A DNA stretch of 61,504 nucleotides, from contig JAAERL010001053.1 in assembly GCA_024230435.1 (NCBI GenBank), forward strand, positions 1-61,504. The letters run 5' to 3'. Under the pieces are notes generated by a model. The model did not search any database. It was not told the origin of the DNA and saw nothing but the letters and a program-made list of their open reading frames with translations. Shown in pieces: positions 468 to 61,504 of this stretch. This DNA comes from Desulfobacteraceae bacterium (GTDB lineage: Bacteria; Desulfobacterota; Desulfobacteria; Desulfobacterales; Desulfosarcinaceae). Both the position numbers and the translations under genes were made by a program. The stretch's first letter is position 1. Each line of letters starts with the position of its first letter.

Positions 468-698
468 GGCGATTTTTGTTAAATAATATAAAAGCATCTT
501 GCATGTTTTTTTCGTCTTGCGCGTTATGCCAACGATGCGAATATACCACTTATGCTTGTCCTTGAATTCGGTTTCGTTATGTTGCGTCAATGTGCACAAG
601 CAATAAGTATGCACCCATTGACGCGCCTTGAAAACGAAAAAAAATTTAAGCCCGATATGGTATCTGTTAAGATGCTATATTTTTTTCCGCTAATCGCT
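468..698 (-). repeat. Long family A variant with family B core, flanked by TAA
   Basis: The ends are family A type (GGCGATT at 468; AATCGCT at 692-698) and each end is bordered by TAA (465-467 and 699-701). The interior is family B: it contains GCGAATATACCACTTATGC and CCATTGACGCGCCTTGAAAA, which also occur at about 19950 and 1190. At 231 bp it is longer than other family A copies, and its outer arms can pair. It therefore looks like a chimera or nested product of two element families inserted at a TAA target. It fills most of the gap between 400 and 772. Confidence 0.8.
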
Positions 699-1117: not shown

Positions 1118-1877
1118 ACGTTATTCATTCGACTGGCGCTGGTTGTTTTTGAATCCGTTTTTGCCTTAAGGCGCATACAATGAATAGGCGCCCATTGACG
1201 CGCCTTGAAAACGAATCTAAATCCGGCGCAATAACGGGTGTTTGTAACTTCCACGGTCCTAAAATTGTTTTCACAACATCATAAAAAAATAATACTCATT
1301 TTGTATTTTACTGAAATGATATACAAGCAAAATTGAGGCCAAAACACATATTCTCAGCAGGTCCGCTTCGCATATATGAAAATTGGATGGGATAGTTCAT
1401 AATTTTAATTTTTTATGACAAATTTTGTCAGGTTTCCGATTATTGTTGTCATTTTGGTCTACTCCCGGCAATGAATTGCCAGGAATAATTTTTGAAAAAT
1501 TTTAGGTTTATGGAAAATGAAAATAACTCACTCTTCTTATTTTTAGGATGAGGTAATTTCAGTCTATGGGCGCAGGCAATGAGTAAACAGAGTAACCATT
1601 TAATTGCGCATCTTTAAAGCGAATGTAATCGATTAGAGTGCCGGACAATTAGTATTTTTCGAAATCGCTAACCTAACGTTAGAAATAGTTTATATCGCAC
1701 CAATTAATATAAAAGTATCAGGAAAAAATGTGAATTCGGCTCAAGCTTACCTCAGTTTTTATAGCTTTGGATGGAATATTTGATTGATAAGCTGGTTTGG
1801 TTTAATTTATGCTATGATCAATGATTGGATGTCGAATATATTTGCAGCTCGTATTTCAGCTAAATGGGAAATGAACT
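1118..1877. other. Gene-free 760 bp with repeat fragments
   Basis: No convincing gene is seen here. About 1177-1259 is the right part of a family B element (shared CCATTGACGCGCCTTGAAAA and an end reading AACTTCCACGGTCC followed by TAA). At 1463-1484 there is a short hairpin, TCCCGGCAAT / ATTGCC(A)GGA, of which a close relative occurs at 17822-17842. The rest is AT-rich and presumably carries the promoter of the HNH gene at 1878. Confidence 0.55.
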
Positions 1878-15036: not shown

Positions 15037-15777
15037 ATGATCAAACCAATTCAAATAGAAGATATTGTAGATGAATTATTGGAGAGCTTGCGCCCGTTGC
15101 AATTCGGCAACCCGGTAAGTCATGTCTACAATCCTTTGGAATATGCAAGACTGATTCATTCAAAATATTGGACAAGATATGGCCGATCCCAAAAGGATAT
15201 TTTGTTATTGGGGATGAATCCCGGTCCTTGGGGCATGGCCCAAACCGGTGTCCCATTTGGCGATGTGGAAATGGTTCGTGATTGGCTCAAGCTTAAAGGA
15301 AAAATTGATCAACCTTTTGATTGTCACCCCAAGCGCCCGGTTCTCGGATTTGATTGCCGGCGTGGTGAGGTCAGCGGCCGCCGGTTATGGGGGTGGGCAA
15401 AGCAGACGTTTAAGTCGCCGGATTGTTTTTTCAGTCATTTTATGGTCATCAATTACTGCCCCTTAATTTTTATGGACAGTGGCGGACGCAACATCACGCC
15501 GGATAAGTTGTCTAAAAAAGAGAGAAACCCTATTATAGCAGCCTGCGATCAAGCTTTAATAAGAACGGTTCAGTTGCTTAAACCTAAATGGGTTGTTGGT
15601 ATTGGTGTTTACGCCGCTACCCGGGCAGTGCAGGCTTTGAAGGCGATGCAGGTGCGTACCGGCCGTATCACCCATCCGAGTCCGGCTAATCCAAAAGCCA
15701 ACAAGGGCTGGGCTGCTCTTGCCGATCAGGAATTTGCCGATCAGGGTATATTAATGAATGGGAAACAAAAGGTTTGA
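15037..15777 (+). CDS. SMUG1-type single-strand-selective uracil-DNA glycosylase
   Basis: A 246-residue member of the uracil-DNA-glycosylase superfamily. The first active-site motif reads LLGMNPGPWGMAQTGVPFGD, with the conserved Asn and Met of SMUG1, and the second reads HPSPANPKANKGW. Conserved RPVLGFDCRRGEVSGRRLWG lies between them and is characteristic of the SMUG1 branch. It removes uracil and oxidised pyrimidines from DNA. Bacterial SMUG1 genes are uncommon but known. The last 27 bp overlap the convergent flavoprotein gene, so the pair share a 3' end with no room for a terminator. Confidence 0.9.
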   Translation: MIKPIQIEDIVDELLESLRPLQFGNPVSHVYNPLEYARLIHSKYWTRYGRSQKDILLLGMNPGPWGMAQTGVPFGDVEMVRDWLKLKGKIDQPFDCHPKRPVLGFDCRRGEVSGRRLWGWAKQTFKSPDCFFSHFMVINYCPLIFMDSGGRNITPDKLSKKERNPIIAACDQALIRTVQLLKPKWVVGIGVYAATRAVQALKAMQVRTGRITHPSPANPKANKGWAALADQEFADQGILMNGKQKV

Positions 15778-16941
15778 AAAAGAGCCAGTGCCTTGAATGG
15801 CGGCTTCCAATCGTTTTGGAAATAAACGTAAAAAAAACCTCAACCCTTTGTAGCGGCGATAACGGCCGTCAAAAAATAACAGGTCGCGGTAGAGCCGAAT
15901 CCGTTTGAATTCACGCAGGATTTTCTTTCGTATCATTTTGTTGTAGAAAACTTCGGCCCTGCCGTAATCAGGCCGGGCTTGCCCAATTGCATGGGCTGCA
16001 AGTTGTGCACTCAGATGGGCGTAATAAATTCCTTCTCCTAAAAGCGGATCGGCAAGACCGCATGCATCTCCTACGAGAAAAATCCCGTTTTGTGAAGGGG
16101 TGCTGATAAAGTTGCCATAGGGCAAGGGATGGCCTTTTCTTGGTGTATCGGCATAATCATAATAACCGGATGCTTTGAGAAATTTTTCGAATCCTGCTTT
16201 GAAAGGCTCCTTATTTTTATGGGGGATTGAACATATGCCCAAAATATGAGTGCTTTTCCCCGGAAAGGACCAGGCATATCCCCAGGGTACGAATCCAAAA
16301 TGCAGTGATGAAAATTGTGGACAGAGGGTGTTTTCTGTGCATTGTTGCCGGATTTCTATGGTCATGGCCAACTGTTTGCGCCATTTTTGCTTTTCGATGC
16401 CCGTTTTTTGCATAACTTTGCGAACCGTGCTCAAGGCGCCATCGGCGCCTATTATTATTTTTGCTTTGATATGCCGGCCGGTATCCGTGACCACAGTTTT
16501 TTTTTCCGGCTCGATTGCTTTGATCCCCATCCCTGTATGGATCTGCGCTCCTGCCGACAGGGCATGTTGCATCCACAGACTGTCGTAGCTTGGCCTGTCA
16601 ACGAAGTGAAATGGAAAATCAAGGATTCCGCGTCCAATTTCTTTCTTCAAATAGAACACCCGGTAATCGCGGCAACTGTTCTTAATGATTTGGCGCTTGC
16701 AAAGCTCTTCGAATGAAATATTGAAAATGCGTTTGATCAAATCGGCTGTTTTCCAAGTAATTAAGCCGGCGCAAACCTTTTGCCGCGGGAAAACCTTTTT
16801 GTCGAACACCGTAACGTTGAAACCCTTTTTCGCTAAAAGGCAGGCACATGTCGAACCCGCGGGCCCAGCGCCAATTATTGCTACGTCGCATTTGGAGTCA
16901 ATTTTTGAATGTACTCTATTTGATGATGTCCTCATTGTCAT
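15751..16941 (-). CDS. Geranylgeranyl-reductase-family FAD-dependent oxidoreductase
   Basis: A flavoprotein of about 396 residues. It has the FAD dinucleotide site VAIIGAGPAGSTCACLLAKK near the N-terminus, PRQKVCAGLI with the Cys-Ala-Gly motif of this family, IIGADGALS in the middle and GDACGLADPLLGEGIYYA for the second FAD contact. The family reduces prenyl double bonds or aromatic/quinone-like substrates; the substrate here is unknown. The frame opens at a TTG (16962), but ATG 16941 or 16935 is more likely. This start lies inside the 3' end of the original GntR gene, so the two were a translationally coupled operon before the repeat insertion. Confidence 0.85.
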   Translation of the reverse strand: MTMRTSSNRVHSKIDSKCDVAIIGAGPAGSTCACLLAKKGFNVTVFDKKVFPRQKVCAGLITWKTADLIKRIFNISFEELCKRQIIKNSCRDYRVFYLKKEIGRGILDFPFHFVDRPSYDSLWMQHALSAGAQIHTGMGIKAIEPEKKTVVTDTGRHIKAKIIIGADGALSTVRKVMQKTGIEKQKWRKQLAMTIEIRQQCTENTLCPQFSSLHFGFVPWGYAWSFPGKSTHILGICSIPHKNKEPFKAGFEKFLKASGYYDYADTPRKGHPLPYGNFISTPSQNGIFLVGDACGLADPLLGEGIYYAHLSAQLAAHAIGQARPDYGRAEVFYNKMIRKKILREFKRIRLYRDLLFFDGRYRRYKGLRFFLRLFPKRLEAAIQGTGSFSNLLFPIH

Positions 16942-17761
16942 TTTTGTGAAACATAATCGCAAAAAGGTTTTTTATGGCATTTGCATTGTGAATTTTAATC
17001 AGCTCTTTAGCCCATTGAACATCTTTGATTTTTATGGCATCAAACAAGTTCTCATGCTCTTTTATAATTTCGATTTGCCTGCTAAGGCGATTGGCGGAAA
17101 AGAATATACCAGATTGAGCTTCGATTTTTTTTCGTATTCAAGGCGCGCCAAAGTTTTGCTGATCAGTTTGCATACTTAACGTATTCGTACCTTTGGCATA
17201 ACGCACAAGACGGGAAAAAGACATACAAGATGGTATATTCTTTAACACAAATCGCCTAAGCTTGTGATCCCCTGTATTGAAACGCAGAAAAATCCGCTGG
17301 CAAATGTCTTTGTATCGATTGACCAGATAATGGTTTTCAATCATTTCAATGGTACAAGCATGGTAGTCCGCATCTAAAATGAAAAGTTTGCGCAAAACGC
17401 ACCCGGAGATAGATTTTTCATATTCTATCTTTTTGGATTCCAAAAGAGCGAGCTTTTCCGGCGATATTTTTCTGATTGCCTTGCCGATGGCGCCGGCTTC
17501 AAGAATTTCTTTTATCTCATAAAGTGATACAGCTTCTTCAATGGTCAGTTTGTGAACAGTGTAGCCCTGGTTGGGAACAAAATCCAGATAACCCTCTTTG
17601 GCCAGAATGCTTAAAGCATTATTGACTGGGGTTCGGCTAACGCCTAATTGCTTGGCCAAGTCAACAAAGATTAATCGTTGCCCGGGTACAATATCATAAT
17701 GCAGCATCATTTGTTTTATACTATCGTATGCCGCCATGGTAAGGTTTTTTTGCCCGGCCAT
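16916..17761 (-). pseudogene. GntR/FCD transcriptional regulator interrupted by a family A element
   Basis: The N-terminal winged helix is intact (IVPGQRLIFVDLAKQLGVSR then TPVNNALSILAKEGYL), followed by the first half of an FCD ligand-binding domain. After GDHKL the frame enters the repeat (17086-17256) and stops at 17138. The missing C-terminus (SRQIEIIKEHENLFDAIKIK to NDNEDIIK, stop at 16916) lies on the other side. Deleting the 171-bp element with one TAA restores a continuous 223-residue GntR protein of normal length, reading HKLSRQIEI across the join. The truncated product would keep DNA binding but have a false C-terminus, so it is probably nonfunctional or constitutive. The presumed target is the downstream flavoprotein. 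Confidence 0.92.
17086..17256 (+). mobile_element. Intact family A MITE-like element inserted in the GntR gene
   Basis: A 171-bp non-coding element. The ends are inverted repeats (GGCGATTGGCGGAAAAGAAT and, on the other strand, GGCGATTTGTGTTAAAGAAT), and both sides carry TAA (17083-17085 and 17257-17259). Long internal arms make it nearly palindromic around ATACTTAACGTAT. The interrupted host gene proves it is an inserted unit. TAA/TTA duplications and short GG ends are compatible with mobilisation by an IS5-group (TNA-target) transposase, but no such transposase is in the window. Confidence 0.93.
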
Positions 17762-18257: not shown

Positions 18258-18866
18258 ATGAAATCATTTGATGAGCTTTTAAAAGAATCCGCTGCTTATC
18301 ATGGGCACTTGTGCGCCGGACAAGTGATCGGTGTCCGGATGGCGATACTTGGCTGCCGTCTCGTGGGTATCGATGATCCAAAGGAGCCGGAATTTCGCAA
18401 AAAACTTATGGTATTTGTTGAAATAGACCGTTGTGTAACAGATGCCATCGAATGTGTCACCGGTTGCCGTATGGGTAAGCGAACTCTGAAATTTAAGGAT
18501 TTCGGTATAAATGCAGCAACGTTTCTAAATTTGGATACCAAAAACGCTTATAGAATTCTATCAACTGAAAGCTCAAGGCAGGAAGTCAAAACATATGCCC
18601 CTGAGCAAGCGGATCAAAAAAAATGTCAGATTCAAGGCTATATGCGCATGCCTGATCGTCTTTTGTTCGATGTCCAGCCAGTTACAGTTGAATTGAATCA
18701 ATGGGAAATGCCGGGGCCGCCAAAACGTCATGCTCAGTGCATGCAATGCGGGCAAGTTGTTCGAGATGCAAGAGAAGTTGTTACTAATAGAAAAACGCTA
18801 TGCCGGCATTGCTCCGGGCAAAGTTATTACAAGGCCGCTTCTGGTGGTGTTGATATAGATCGGTGA
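18258..18866 (+). CDS. FmdE family protein (formylmethanofuran dehydrogenase subunit E-like)
   Basis: A 202-residue protein. The N-terminal FmdE domain carries the signature AAYHGHLCAGQVIGVRMAI and, about 45 residues later, RCVTDAIECVTGCRMGKRTL, whose His and Cys residues are the metal ligands of the family. The C-terminus is a treble-clef zinc finger (CMQCGQVV and CRHCSGQSYY). In non-methanogens FmdE proteins occur next to molybdopterin genes and are presumed to act in cofactor insertion or metal handling; this is not proven. It is the first gene of a plus-strand set running to 25422, 24 bp before the MPT-binding gene. Confidence 0.9.
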   Translation: MKSFDELLKESAAYHGHLCAGQVIGVRMAILGCRLVGIDDPKEPEFRKKLMVFVEIDRCVTDAIECVTGCRMGKRTLKFKDFGINAATFLNLDTKNAYRILSTESSRQEVKTYAPEQADQKKCQIQGYMRMPDRLLFDVQPVTVELNQWEMPGPPKRHAQCMQCGQVVRDAREVVTNRKTLCRHCSGQSYYKAASGGVDIDR

Positions 18867-18890
18867 AAAATCCGCAGTGGAGAAAATAGA

Positions 18891-19919
18891 ATGATTGAGG
18901 TAGTTAAAATTGAAGAAGCTGTTGGCTGCGCTTTGGCCCACGATATCACCGAAATTATCCCTGGTAAATTCAAAGGGCCGGCTTTTCTCAAAGGTCATGT
19001 CTTGCAAACCCAGGATCTGGATCATCTTCGAAGGCTTGGGAAAAACCACTTATATGTTTTATCCCCGCGCCCGGATCAAATGCATGAAGACGATGCCGCT
19101 ATAGCGCTTGCTGATGCTTTGAGCGGATCTGGGGTTTACTGGTATGAAGCTCCAAGAGAAGGTAAAATTTCATTAAGGGCAAGTTTCAGCGGTTTGCTTA
19201 AGGTGGATGTAAGGGCCTTAACCCAATTTAATCTGATCGGCGATATTATGTGCGCTACTAGGCATACCAATTCAATTGTATATAAAAGAGACGAAGTTGC
19301 AGCCACCCGGGCCATACCCCTGTTGGTAGAGAAACAAAAAGTTGAGGCTGCGCTGGAGGCAGCAGGCGATTCGGCTCAAGGGGTGATTCGGGTGCTTCCG
19401 ATGAAAAGGGCTTCTGCAGGGGTTTTGATCACGGGCGATGAAGTATATTCGGGGAAAATACAAGACCGGTTCGAGCCCGTCATACGAAAAAAAGTGTGTA
19501 GCTTGGGAGGTGAGGTTAAGCACGTTGCCTTTTTACCGGACAATGATGAATTGATTGCCCGGGCGGCCTTGGATCTTGTGGATAAAGGAGTAAATATTCT
19601 GATTACCACGGGGGGCATGTCTGTTGATCCTGATGACCGAACACGGTACGCCCTGCAAAAGGCCGGTGCAAAAGATATGGTTTACGGTTCTGCTGTATTG
19701 CCCGGAGCCATGTTCATGGTTGCCGAATTAAAAGGCGTTCCATTGCTCGGCATTCCAGCATGTGGTATGTATGCTGCTGCTACGATATTTGATCTGATCT
19801 ATCCGCGCGTGCTGGCGGGTGATAAGATCAATCGGCATGATGTGGCTGTATTGGGGCATGGAGGATTGTGTTTAAAATGTAAAAGTTGCCGTTTTCCTGA
19901 TTGCGCATTTGGAAAATGA
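18891..19919 (+). CDS. Molybdopterin-binding (MoeA/MogA-like) domain protein
   Basis: A 342-residue protein. The C-terminal half carries a MoCF-like molybdopterin-binding fold (AGVLITGDEVYSGKIQDRFE, ILITTGGMSVDPDDRTRYAL, LPGAMFMVAELKGVPLLGIP). The N-terminal half resembles the extra domain found in this anaerobe-typical group rather than canonical MoeA. It ends with a Cys cluster (CLKCKSCRFPDCAFGK). The family is regularly found beside FmdE and is thought to take part in molybdenum or tungsten cofactor maturation. Its sequence is distinct from moeA, which follows after a 203-bp gap that contains a family B element. Confidence 0.85.
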   Translation: MIEVVKIEEAVGCALAHDITEIIPGKFKGPAFLKGHVLQTQDLDHLRRLGKNHLYVLSPRPDQMHEDDAAIALADALSGSGVYWYEAPREGKISLRASFSGLLKVDVRALTQFNLIGDIMCATRHTNSIVYKRDEVAATRAIPLLVEKQKVEAALEAAGDSAQGVIRVLPMKRASAGVLITGDEVYSGKIQDRFEPVIRKKVCSLGGEVKHVAFLPDNDELIARAALDLVDKGVNILITTGGMSVDPDDRTRYALQKAGAKDMVYGSAVLPGAMFMVAELKGVPLLGIPACGMYAAATIFDLIYPRVLAGDKINRHDVAVLGHGGLCLKCKSCRFPDCAFGK

Positions 19920-19934
19920 CATGCAGATGCATAA

Positions 19935-20108
19935 GGGTCGTGGAAGATGCGAATATACCACTTATGCTTGTCCGTAAATTCGTTTTCGTTAGGTTGTGTC
20001 AATGTGCGCAGACAATTAGTATATAATCAGTCTGCACCCATCTTTGTTTCTTGAAAACGAATCCAAATCTAAGCGCAATAAGGTCTATATTGGCATCTTC
20101 CAAGACCC
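19935..20108 (+). repeat. Family B MITE-like element
   Basis: A 174-bp element with terminal inverted repeats GGGTCGTGGAAGATGC (19935-19950) and GCATCTTCCAAGACCC (20093-20108), flanked on both sides by TAA (19932-19934 and 20109-20111). The internal sequence (GAATATACCACTTATGCTTG and TGTGTCAATGTGCGC) is also present in the chimeric element at 468-698. It is inserted between two genes of the molybdopterin set and ends 14 bp before the moeA start codon. Confidence 0.85.
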
Positions 20109-20122
20109 TAAGGATATTTTAA

Positions 20123-21340
20123 GTGGTCAGACATTTACCCGTGGGATTAAATAAAGCGTTGCAGCTTGTGCTGGACAACGTATCCGGCCTGGAGGCCGAG
20201 TCCGGGCAACTCAATGAATGCGCTGACAGGATTTTAGCCGCGGACCTGTATTCAAAAGTGGACTCGCCATCTGTTAATGCATCATTAAAAGACGGCTATG
20301 CAGTGGTATCGAACGATGTTGCGCTGGCAACAAAAGATCAACCGGTACGACTTAAAAATATTGGCATGATAACAGCCGGTTCGGATAAGGTTTTGTCAAT
20401 TGATTCGGGATTTACGGCAAGGGTGCTCACAGGCGCCAAGATCCCTCAGGGCGCCGATGCCATTTTATCCGAAGAATATGTTAAAGTTCAACGGGATGCC
20501 ATTATTGCTCAAAACAGTGCGGAACCGGGACGCAACATTATGAAAAAAGGAAGTGATGTTTGCGCAGGTGATCGAATTGCGGCGAAGGGACAACAGCTTA
20601 CGCCGGGCATCGTCGGATTGCTGGCCGCAGCCGGATTCAACGCTGTCAGCATATTTCGAAATCCAATGGTTACCCTCATTGCTACAGGCGACGAGGTTAT
20701 TGCGCCAGGGATGCCTCTTACCGAGGGCAAACTGTACGCCAGTAATCTTACGGCCTTGAATGCATGGTGCCGCAGATACGGCATCAAGGCGCGTCTTGCC
20801 TTTGCAAAAGATATATCCCATGATATTAAAAACGCTCTGGAACAAGCCGCAGCCGTTTCGGATGCTGTAATCACAAGCGGTGGCGCCTGGACAGGGGACC
20901 GTGATATAGTTGTAAAAGTACTTGATACGATAGGCTGGCAACGGATATTCCATCGCATACGCATTGGCCCTGGAAAAGCCGTGGGTTTTGGGCTGTTGAA
21001 AAGCAAACCGGTTTTTATTTTACCCGGTGGCCCGCCGTCAAATCTTATGGGGTTTTTACAACTGGCATTGCCGGGGCTTTTAAAGCTTGCAGGCCATGTC
21101 AATCCCGGATTGCCGACAATTCCCGTTCGGGTCGCTTCGGAGCTAAACGGGCGTTTTGCGGATTGGACTCAATTCATTTTCGGTACATTGGCACAAGAAG
21201 AAGGTATGGCCGTTTTTCATGCCGATCGCAATAAAAGCCGTCTCAAATCAATGGCCTGCGCTCAGGCTATTGTGTCAATTGCAGAAGGAGTGACAAAAAT
21301 ACCACAAGGACAGATTGTTCCAGCTCAAATGTTGATATAG
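20123..21340 (+). CDS. moeA: Molybdopterin molybdenumtransferase
   Basis: A 405-residue MoeA. It inserts molybdate (or tungstate) into adenylylated molybdopterin. Domains in order: MoeA N-terminal region (KDGYAVVSNDV, AGSDKV), a lid/beta region with RVLTGAKIPQGADAIL and EPGRNIMKKGSD, the MPT-binding domain (TLIATGDEVIAPG, AVITSGGAWTGDRDIV, FHRIRIGPGKAVGFGLL, FILPGGPPSN) and a C-terminal beta domain. The start is GTG 20123. Because a family B element lies immediately upstream, its ribosome-binding site and any promoter must be within or next to that element. It is followed after 11 bp by moaA. Confidence 0.95.
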   Translation: MVRHLPVGLNKALQLVLDNVSGLEAESGQLNECADRILAADLYSKVDSPSVNASLKDGYAVVSNDVALATKDQPVRLKNIGMITAGSDKVLSIDSGFTARVLTGAKIPQGADAILSEEYVKVQRDAIIAQNSAEPGRNIMKKGSDVCAGDRIAAKGQQLTPGIVGLLAAAGFNAVSIFRNPMVTLIATGDEVIAPGMPLTEGKLYASNLTALNAWCRRYGIKARLAFAKDISHDIKNALEQAAAVSDAVITSGGAWTGDRDIVVKVLDTIGWQRIFHRIRIGPGKAVGFGLLKSKPVFILPGGPPSNLMGFLQLALPGLLKLAGHVNPGLPTIPVRVASELNGRFADWTQFIFGTLAQEEGMAVFHADRNKSRLKSMACAQAIVSIAEGVTKIPQGQIVPAQMLI

Positions 21341-31104: not shown

Positions 31105-31262
31105 GGCGATTGGAGGAAAAAATATAGCATCTTAACAGATACCATATTGGGCTTAGTTTTTTTCGTATTCAAGGCGTGCCAAAGTCTGCATACTTAACGT
31201 ATTCGAACCTTTAGCATAACACACAAGACGTAAAAGATGGTATATTTTTAACACAAACCGCC
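31105..31262 (+). repeat. Family A element between MglA and DUF4388 genes
   Basis: A 158-bp copy with ends GGCGATTGGAGGAAAAA and ACACAAACCGCC and TAA on both sides (31102-31104; 31263-31265). It belongs to the sub-type with AGCATCTTAACAGATACC in its left arm, shared with the rc of 660-690. It ends only about 15 bp before the start of the next gene and so contributes the whole 5' leader of that gene. Confidence 0.88.
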
Positions 31263-37426: not shown

Positions 37427-37526
37427 GGCGCTTGGCGGAAAAAAATTTAGCATCTTAGGCGATTGGCGGAAAAGAATATACCAGATTGAGCTTCGATTTT
37501 TTTTCGTCTTCAAGGCGCTGCCAAAG
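37427..37526 (+). repeat. Nested, truncated family A copies
   Basis: A first left end (GGCGCTTGGCGGAAAAAAAT at 37427) is followed 31 bp later by a second left end (TTA then GGCGATTGGCGGAAAAGAAT at 37458), so one copy inserted in another. The second copy runs to about 37520 and stops inside at GCCAAAG, where the IS256 relic begins. The right halves of both copies are missing. Confidence 0.85.
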
Positions 37527-38182
37527 ACGGCAAAAAAGAGCTTGTAGCCATCAATGGCGGCTTTCGTGAAAGCGAACTTTTCCTCGCGCGACCCAGTTGC
37601 TGACCGATCTTAAACCCACAGGGCTTACCAAAGCTATGTATTGACAGCCGGCACCGGCAGTCTATGTTTTTGGAAAGCTTTATCCAAGCTCTATCTTGAT
37701 AGCCGATTGCAGCGATGCTGGGTCCACAAGGTGACCAATGTTCTAAATAAATTACCAAAGAGCCTTCAACCAGTAGCCAAAAAAAAGCTGCATAATATCT
37801 GGCATGCCGACGGCAAAAAAATAGAGCGATTTTTTGGCGACTTTATACAAGTGTATGGGGCAAAGTTTCCTAAAGCTTCTCAGCGTCTGGAAAAAGACCA
37901 CGACGCCTTGCTAACCTTTTATGACTTTCCAGCGGAGCACTGGCGACAGATTCGAACTACTAACCCGATAGAATCAACCTTTGGTACCGCAGAGGGTTAC
38001 AGACAGCCAAGGCAAGGAGCTGTTTTTTCTTCCTATACGGTGATAACGATGGCATTTAAACTATGTCAAAACACTGAGAAAAATGGATGCGCCTGCATCG
38101 CCCTGAGCGCCTGATTGAAGCAATGAAAGTGAAAGGAGTGAAATTTGTGAATGAAATCGAAGAAAACCGGATCACCGCCTAA
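37520..38182 (+). pseudogene. IS256-family transposase relic
   Basis: The sequence starts mid-gene with AKDGKKELVAINGGFRES and continues as LYLDSRLQRCWVHKVTNVLN, KLPKSLQPVAKKKLHNIWHA, YGAKFPKASQRLEKDHDALL, TFYDFPAEHWRQIRTTNPIE, STFGTAEGYR and EKNGCACIALSA/WMRLHRPERLIEAMKVKGVK to a stop at 38180-38182. These are the C-terminal parts of IS256-type transposases, including the WVHK and PIESTF regions. The 5' half is absent, the frame is broken in at least two places and the codons around the third catalytic residue are partly rearranged. It cannot encode an active enzyme. Confidence 0.9.
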
Positions 38183-38417
38183 CTTTTCCATACACAACTA
38201 TTGGCCATAACTCATATTGGGGATTACGGCTTATTAAGCACAATGGTATAACTCGATCATCGAGTATAAATCTCTATAAATTTTAAAGTCAGAGATGGAC
38301 AAAATTCCCTTGCTATAATCAGTTCGTGTGCTTTACCATTTGTTATAGTTATTTTGGCGGTTATGCTTATCAGAACAAAATTCAGAATAAAGCAATACCG
38401 CTTATTAGGGAAACGAT

Positions 38418-39912: not shown

Positions 39913-40069
39913 GGCGACTGGCGGAAAAGAATATGCCATATTGGGCTTCGATTTTTTCGTCTTCAAGGCATGCAAAAGTTTGCATACTTAACGTATCTGT
40001 ACCTTTGACATAACACACAAGGCGGGAAAAAAGACATGCAAGATGGTATATTATTTAAGACAAATCGCC
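39913..40069 (+). repeat. Family A element between beta-helix gene and polysaccharide locus
   Basis: A 157-bp copy starting GGCGACTGGCGGAAAAGAAT and ending AGACAAATCGCC, flanked by TAA on both sides (39910-39912; 40070-40072). It shares the CATACTTAACGTAT centre. The rest of the 435-bp gap (39765-40199) is AT-rich with no gene. Confidence 0.9.
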
Positions 40070-61366: not shown

Positions 61367-61504
61367 GGCGATTTGCAGTTAAAGAATATACCATCTTGTA
61401 TGTCTTTTTTCCCGTCTTCTGCGTTATGCCAAAGCCCGAATACGTTAAGTATGCAAACTTTGGCACGCCTTGAATACGAAAAAAAATCCTGCTCAATCTG
61501 GTAT
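61367..61504 (-). repeat. Family A element, inverted, cut by window edge
   Basis: Starts GGCGATTTGCAGTTAAAGAA, preceded by TTA (61364-61366), and runs through TACGTTAAGTATGCAAACTT to the window end at CAATCTGGTAT. This is the reverse complement of the 17086-17256 element, missing only about the outer 20 bases. It is inverted relative to copy 1 at the window start. Confidence 0.92.

Follow-up and report, generated by a model that had tools for sequence, protein, structure and literature searches.

What is the short sequence that interrupts a GntR/FCD regulator gene at positions 17086-17256, how did it reach this site and what does its interior represent? The window (i.e. the whole stretch of 61,504 nt analysed here) is one contig of a host genome of 6.13 Mb distributed over 1238 contigs. 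The regulator is encoded on the minus strand, starting from position 17761. Its 5' part (17257-17761), recognised from ORF reading and Pfam, encodes the wHTH and the first two thirds of the FCD domain, and its 3' part (16916-17085), recognised from the repaired frame, homologues and Pfam, encodes the end of the FCD domain. As it stands, the interrupted frame runs for 39 codons inside the insert and stops at 17138, giving 207 residues. An earlier note on this DNA had described a 171-bp element whose removal, together with one TAA, rejoins both gene halves. Its coordinates and length proved exact: excision restored an in-frame protein of 223 residues (...GDHKL/SRQIEI...) with a stop at 16916-16918, and the Pfam match to the FCD domain, which covers profile positions 2-80 in the interrupted gene, then reached 2-123 of 125 (30.0 to 53.9 bits).

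Alignment with GntR/FCD homologues, the check proposed in that note, pointed in the same direction. The repaired protein matched all seven homologous loci compared (L055-L061) across the junction, with phmmer E-values from 5.7e-67 to 4.9e-25, and none of these seven loci contained an insert of the element's size. In five of them (L055-L059) the alignment was gap-free within 12 residues of the junction; the two most distant homologues (L060 and L061) displayed one single-residue gap on each side within that distance. The best homologues (L055-L057) shared 50-52 % identity with the repaired protein. Their neighbouring genes, as read from frame lists, differ from those of the window, and they are therefore considered as homologues with no claim to orthology.

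The loss of a regulator announced in the earlier note was partly borne out. The end of the FCD domain is lost indeed, but the wording was overstated as the 207-residue remnant retains the DNA-binding domain. Because this domain is kept and the last third of FCD is gone, the gene probably specifies a null or unregulated protein. A FAD-dependent oxidoreductase gene (flavoprotein; 15751-16962, minus strand, TTG start, from ORF and Pfam) covers the regulator's end, so that the overlap with a downstream flavoprotein gene was correctly perceived. Upstream of the split regulator, FmdE-like, MoCF-domain and MoeA-like genes of a molybdenum cofactor region were observed (18258-21340).

The insert itself (17086-17256, plus strand) reads GGCGATT...AATCGCC and is flanked by TAA on the left (17083-17085) and on the right (17257-17259). 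Sequence inspection and an end-pattern scan delimited two terminal inverted repeats, the A end GGCGATTGGCGGAAAAGAATATACCA (17086-17111, plus strand) and the B end (17231-17256), which reads GGCGATTTGTGTTAAAGAATATACCA on the minus strand. Complementarity between both ends extends over ~26 bp, although they recurrently differ at positions 8-13. Flanking trinucleotides were scored for 52 elements of the host genome and three related ones, of which 50 had passed a filter and two were included manually; L016 and L030, cut by contig ends, and L077, which displayed CTG/TAA flanks and was dropped by the filter, were left out. TAA/TAA was encountered in 26 cases, TTA/TTA in 18, mixed pairs in four and others in four, i.e. 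TAA or TTA occurred on both sides in 44 of the 52 elements, with a highly significant left/right concordance (Fisher p = 3e-9). This concordance implies a target duplicated as in cut-and-paste transposition rather than a fixed border. It upholds the boundaries and the three-bp TAA/TTA duplication given in the earlier note. Among the best hits of 30 genomes at the level of the order, 19 displayed the same TWA on both sides, two were mixed and nine were different. Among 20 further elements, TWA was found in 16, TTG in one and no duplication in three; the 16 out of 20 is a selected figure because the script preferred boundaries with identical flanks, and 19 out of 30 is the plainer one.

The segment 17086-17256 is thus a non-autonomous MITE that entered a TAA of the FCD-encoding part through DNA transposition and duplicated this TAA. 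Boundaries, duplication, restored frame and repaired FCD domain all uphold the mobility put forward in the earlier note as a past event; its expression "caught in the act" went too far, as what speaks for recency is confined to the 97-98 % identity with the nearest copies and to the open 3' frame. Two loci might also have been joined by the assembly through a collapsed repeat copy, in which case the gene would not truly be split. The genome is highly fragmented and both ends of the window's contig fall within element copies, but the two halves join into a single frame with a single FCD domain, all seven homologues align over the junction and TAA matches on both sides. A chance join is therefore unlikely and an assembly error was regarded as very improbable. 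The transposition event can accordingly be treated as a clean natural experiment, which fixes boundaries, three-bp duplication and disrupted regulator at once.

The element is short, lacks a transposase gene and belongs to a family (A) that is present in many copies. Throughout the genome, 422 family A ends were detected at two mismatches or fewer, as against none with a reversed-pattern control, which corresponds to about 200 copies. Among 35 elements of the genome, four were located where the joined flanks yield an open frame of 40 codons or more to the left as well as to the right, and two such frames exceeded 200 codons. Most of these copies are therefore probably situated between genes or near gene ends.

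The window contains nine copies or pieces; two additional match rows reflect two of these nine, weakly and on the minus strand. Besides the element in the regulator, they comprised a second complete family A element of 157 bp (39913-40069, plus strand) and a variant of 158 bp (31105-31262, plus strand), both flanked by TAA on either side, and two family A elements cut by the contig ends (1-140, plus strand; 61367-61504, minus strand). A composite element of 231 bp (468-698, minus strand) displayed family A-like ends around a core that belongs, together with its inner ends, to another family, again with TAA on both sides, and whole hybrids of this kind can apparently still transpose. The remaining ones were a degenerate relative with another end type (1119-1255, minus strand), a relative with ends GGGTCKTGGAAGATGC (family B; 19935-20108, minus strand) and the A-end half of an element (37458-37574, plus strand), broken off at a remnant of an IS256-like transposase, named by eye. 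The region of this last piece (37458-38190), where the A-end half abuts the degenerate IS256-like remnant and a second A-like end occurs just upstream at ~37426, represents nested and broken mobile elements.

Between the terminal inverted repeats lies a core forming an asymmetric, imperfect hairpin (17112-17230, plus strand), as derived from the structure of the element and its near relatives and from an alignment of the wider class. Its unpaired junction was conserved in sequence and asymmetric, with the motif CAAGGCG on the 5' side (17139-17145, plus strand) and AACGCACAAG on the 3' side (17200-17209, plus strand; coordinates of both were hand-counted). In an alignment of 40 elements chosen for diversity, from which the structure was also taken (this favours the pairing figures), 30 core pairs were formed in 94.8 % of the cells as compared with 76.6 % after shuffling; 26 of the 30 pairs displayed compensatory changes, i.e. 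changes on both sides, as compared with 16.0; and the covariation score reached 0.562, as against 0.199 after shuffling and 0.118 or less when the partners were slid. Rfam 15 provided no match above gathering, the best E-value for the window element being 2.7, and a scan of four loci gave no match either. Two known kinds of hairpin were tried and rejected by eye: an intrinsic terminator, as no U run follows the hairpin, and an integron attC-like site, as the box motifs familiar from such sites were not recognised.

The local family described in the earlier note is part of a wider class, present in many families of the phylum, whose structured core is conserved. DNA matches to the element were found in six genomes out of 30 in the family, among them the host genome. 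A covariance model built from 22 elements gave matches in at least 150 of 389 genomes of the order, representing 71 of 150 genera, and a second model, built from 40 diverse elements, in at least 36 of 395 genomes of the phylum at E-values of 1e-4 or lower (these E-values being rough). Both counts are lower bounds obtained by scoring the best seven candidates per genome. Of the 36 matching genomes at the level of the phylum, 28 lay outside the order. Elements of the order were generally ~155-162 bp long, and family A of this genome carries an extra insert. The ends vary between species, yet largely match each other within one element. A literature search revealed, in titles and abstract openings, no description of such elements in Desulfobacterales and none of ISAzo13-linked MITEs.

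A set of 28 loci from the search at the level of the phylum displayed CAAGGC in 22 cases, AACGC[AC]G in 20 and both motifs in 18. At least three types of ends were encountered around these similar cores. The first consists of GG...AAATAA ends with TWA duplications, represented by L208, L209, L210 and L228, all with TTA on both sides. Ends of the second type read TGTNACGTCA or TACCCTGTAAC and were flanked by CTAG on both sides (L212, L213, L216 and L217; for L216, the border can be read as CTAG or GTAC). The third type comprised GGGTRYCTTGAAAAATTAG-like ends, with four-bp duplications in five of nine loci: TGAA in L222, TTAC in L223, TGTA in L225 and ATAA in L229 and L231 (the latter also readable as CATAAG). 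The four CTAG loci obtained model E-values between 1.3e-19 and 5.9e-15; those of the five loci with four-bp duplications were weaker (3.8e-9 to 1.8e-6). L212 and L213 lacked both strict core motifs; L229 and L231 each lacked one.

The core is thus bound to no single end type, which is the most surprising result of this study. Judging from ends and duplications, the three types would belong to unrelated transposase families. The hairpin being conserved and common to MITEs with other end types, the core is probably a functional module, as RNA or single-stranded DNA, rather than filler; the covariation suggests that the folded form, whether RNA or extruded DNA, may be under selection. The class looks like a MITE variant with a conserved and possibly transferable structured core, of which the single insertion described above is in itself an ordinary case. 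It is tentatively proposed, with slightly less than even confidence, that the core of ~110 bases functions as a structured nucleic acid, is selected for a role of its own and was captured repeatedly between unrelated transposon ends (of TWA, CTAG and four-bp type) in Thermodesulfobacteriota. It could, for instance, bring a host factor to the transposition complex or protect the host from insertion damage. If true, this would make the core a transferable module of mobile elements, as opposed to the degraded interior of a single insertion sequence.

Pairing in the core could also reflect the mere maintenance of a palindrome, through correction of one arm by the other or through an origin from two inverted copies, the folded form being functionless. 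A palindromic build is inherent to MITEs, and hybrid or flipped elements do exist: one element of the host genome (L022, 1502-1672) has an A end at either extremity, as though one end had replaced the other with its own copy, and an element of the relative G014 (L085) has two different ends. Correction between arms would however make them symmetrical, and the persistent asymmetry of the junction motifs counts against it. CAAGGC was found on the 5' side in 39 of the 40 aligned elements, and one element carried the mirrored motif within the 3' half; on the 3' side, AACGC[AC]G was found in 21 and the looser AAC[AG][AC][AC]G in 35, and the exact mirror of AACGCAG was encountered in none of the 5' halves. 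Cores with the same motifs moreover sit between other end types. Palindrome maintenance was therefore held rather unlikely, and a functional core is retained as the preferred reading. According to PMC10969869, bacterial MITEs are thought to derive mainly from insertion sequences. Their interiors are therefore commonly seen as leftovers. The persistence of one recognisable folded core across many families of the phylum, while ends change, renders selection on MITE interiors testable, as well as the question of which host factor these interiors serve.

As for the mover, the element has no gene of its own, and a transposase must therefore presumably act in trans. This would be a DDE transposase, most likely of ISAzo13 type, moving the element to a TWA target. 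For the class as a whole, rather than for this family or genome, ISAzo13-family DDE transposases were considered with somewhat better than even confidence as the most likely kind of mover, because ISAzo13 elements of the same order display three-bp duplications of TAA or TTA and possess similarly designed GG...AAATAA ends. According to PMC10045372, duplications of three bp are produced by ISAzo13 and by its eukaryotic relative Zator.

ISAzo13-family genes (PF07592) were detected in at least 104 of the 389 genomes of the order, a lower bound obtained from the best five candidates per genome. A total of 51 PF07592 loci (31 + 20) was screened with a script that allowed any identical flanking trinucleotide. 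The best pair of ends reached at least 19 matches out of 28 in 18 loci, and the trinucleotide was TAA or TTA in all 18 (in L179, tied with a TTC pair). One more ISAzo13 element, missed by the script, was delimited by eye in the complete genome of a relative (G014) from three copies (TTA, TAA and TTA), bringing the number of delimited elements to 19. The other 33 loci displayed no pair with at least 19 matches; pairs with 16-18 matches and other trinucleotides were taken as chance. An end search restricted to TWA gave nothing in L126, L127, L129 and L135. Several PF07592 genes, among them L128 (G293), were split into two overlapping frames or contained internal stops, which programmed frameshifting or decay may explain.

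Resemblance between both kinds of ends was evaluated with 38 MITE ends (19 end sets, two from this genome and 17 from the 20 further elements, L191, L193 and L200 being left out) and 37 IS ends from the 19 delimited elements, identical ends of one IS being entered once. The mean match amounted to 18.4 out of 28, as against 14.5 after shuffling, and none of 300 shuffle sets reached 18.4. An earlier null had excluded 28-mers with at least 21 matches to known ends, which lowers the null, and the shuffle test was run without such a filter. The window family's own ends reached just 16 out of 28 against IS ends, which is not significant alone (p = 0.12 and 0.18). One MITE, L228 (157 bp), is flanked by TTA on either side and contains the two core motifs; one of its ends matches both ends of an ISAzo13 element from G316 at 26 out of 28 positions. 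The genome of L228 (G149) is not among the 104 with a PF07592 match.

A profile search for PF07592 gave no match in the genome of the window. MITEs and ISAzo13 genes were both detected among best candidates in 50 of the 389 genomes, MITEs alone in 100, ISAzo13 alone in 54 and neither in 185. PF07592 thus occurred in 50 of the 150 MITE-bearing genomes and co-occurrence was weak (odds ratio 1.7, p = 0.025). Fragmented assemblies may account for the absence of transposases. The exact core motif was absent from the 19 delimited IS, four of which carried TTCAAGGCG with one mismatch; the MITEs are therefore not simple deletion derivatives of those IS.

The same insertion could have been mediated by a transposase of IS5/PIF-Harbinger type. 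Relatives of this group use TNA or TWA targets and have ends starting with GG, so that the TWA duplications and GG-starting ends observed here would suit them as well, and six PF01609 matches exist in the genome. None of these six loci is however surrounded by the element's ends (five mismatches or fewer); in L033, a separate complete element lies beside an unrelated transposase. A PF01609 element on contig C541 displayed different ends by eye. PF13359 was not found in this genome and provided one match in one of five genomes. On the basis of these two families, an IS5/PIF-Harbinger mover was judged unlikely. Searches through PF01609, PF13359 and PF07592 revealed no cognate autonomous element with the same ends in the genome of the window, and neither one pattern scan of viral contigs nor blastn against plasmids and phages gave a match. 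The ISAzo13-type mover thus remains preferred, and the explanation as a whole, i.e. a MITE inserted with the help of an ISAzo13-type transposase acting in trans, a damaged regulator and a functional core, was considered likely. The TWA target rule and the end design would then single out one transposase family.

Several known systems resemble these elements in part. ISAzo13 elements share the three-bp duplication, TAA or TTA in the 19 delimited cases, and the GG...AAATAA ends; they differ from the MITEs in carrying a transposase gene and in having no exact copy of the core motifs, and none was found in this genome. Tourist-type MITEs of the PIF/Harbinger group in plants likewise have TWA duplications and ends starting with GG, but their hosts are eukaryotic and a PF13359 transposase was not found in this genome. 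REP/RAYT systems rely on a tyrosine HUH transposase acting on a hairpin and produce no target duplication; the duplications encountered here argue against them. Bacterial MITEs, as described in PMC10969869, are similarly short and geneless, with terminal inverted repeats, target duplications and stem-loop transcripts, and are mostly intergenic and sometimes intragenic. The present elements differ in that a length of ~160 bp and a sequence-conserved asymmetric core recur across many families of the order and outside it, while the ends change. ERIC elements (127 bp), known from Enterobacteriaceae and Vibrionaceae, according to PMC10969869 and PMC2267715 share the high copy number, a single long stem-loop and the spread over related families. 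They are set apart, by that description, from elements of Desulfobacterales and relatives with TWA duplications and several end types around one core.

An autonomous partner was also sought in the complete relative G014, where 20 stretches were read around ends without near partner; several had in fact a partner at ~157 bp. Thirteen orphan ends were retained. For 12 of these 13, no distant partner end (six mismatches or fewer) was present within the stretch read, the inward stretch of L089 comprising 378 bases. Five corresponded to truncated copies (L081, L082, L088, L091 and L093), and next to that of L091 lies a transposase-like gene, with no partner end (frames were listed for four stretches). 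Two were ~36-bp internal-deletion derivatives in which both extreme ends persist (L075, near 4435; L080, near 328), and two were hybrids with two different end types (L078, 4240-4413; L085, 318-476), the latter with TAA on both sides by eye. The remaining four were solo ends (L074, L084, L089 and L092). Two of them, the solo B ends of L084 (near 327) and L089 (near 378), are located upstream of glnD-like and glgA-like genes, respectively, as seen by eye, which hints at a possible regulatory reuse.
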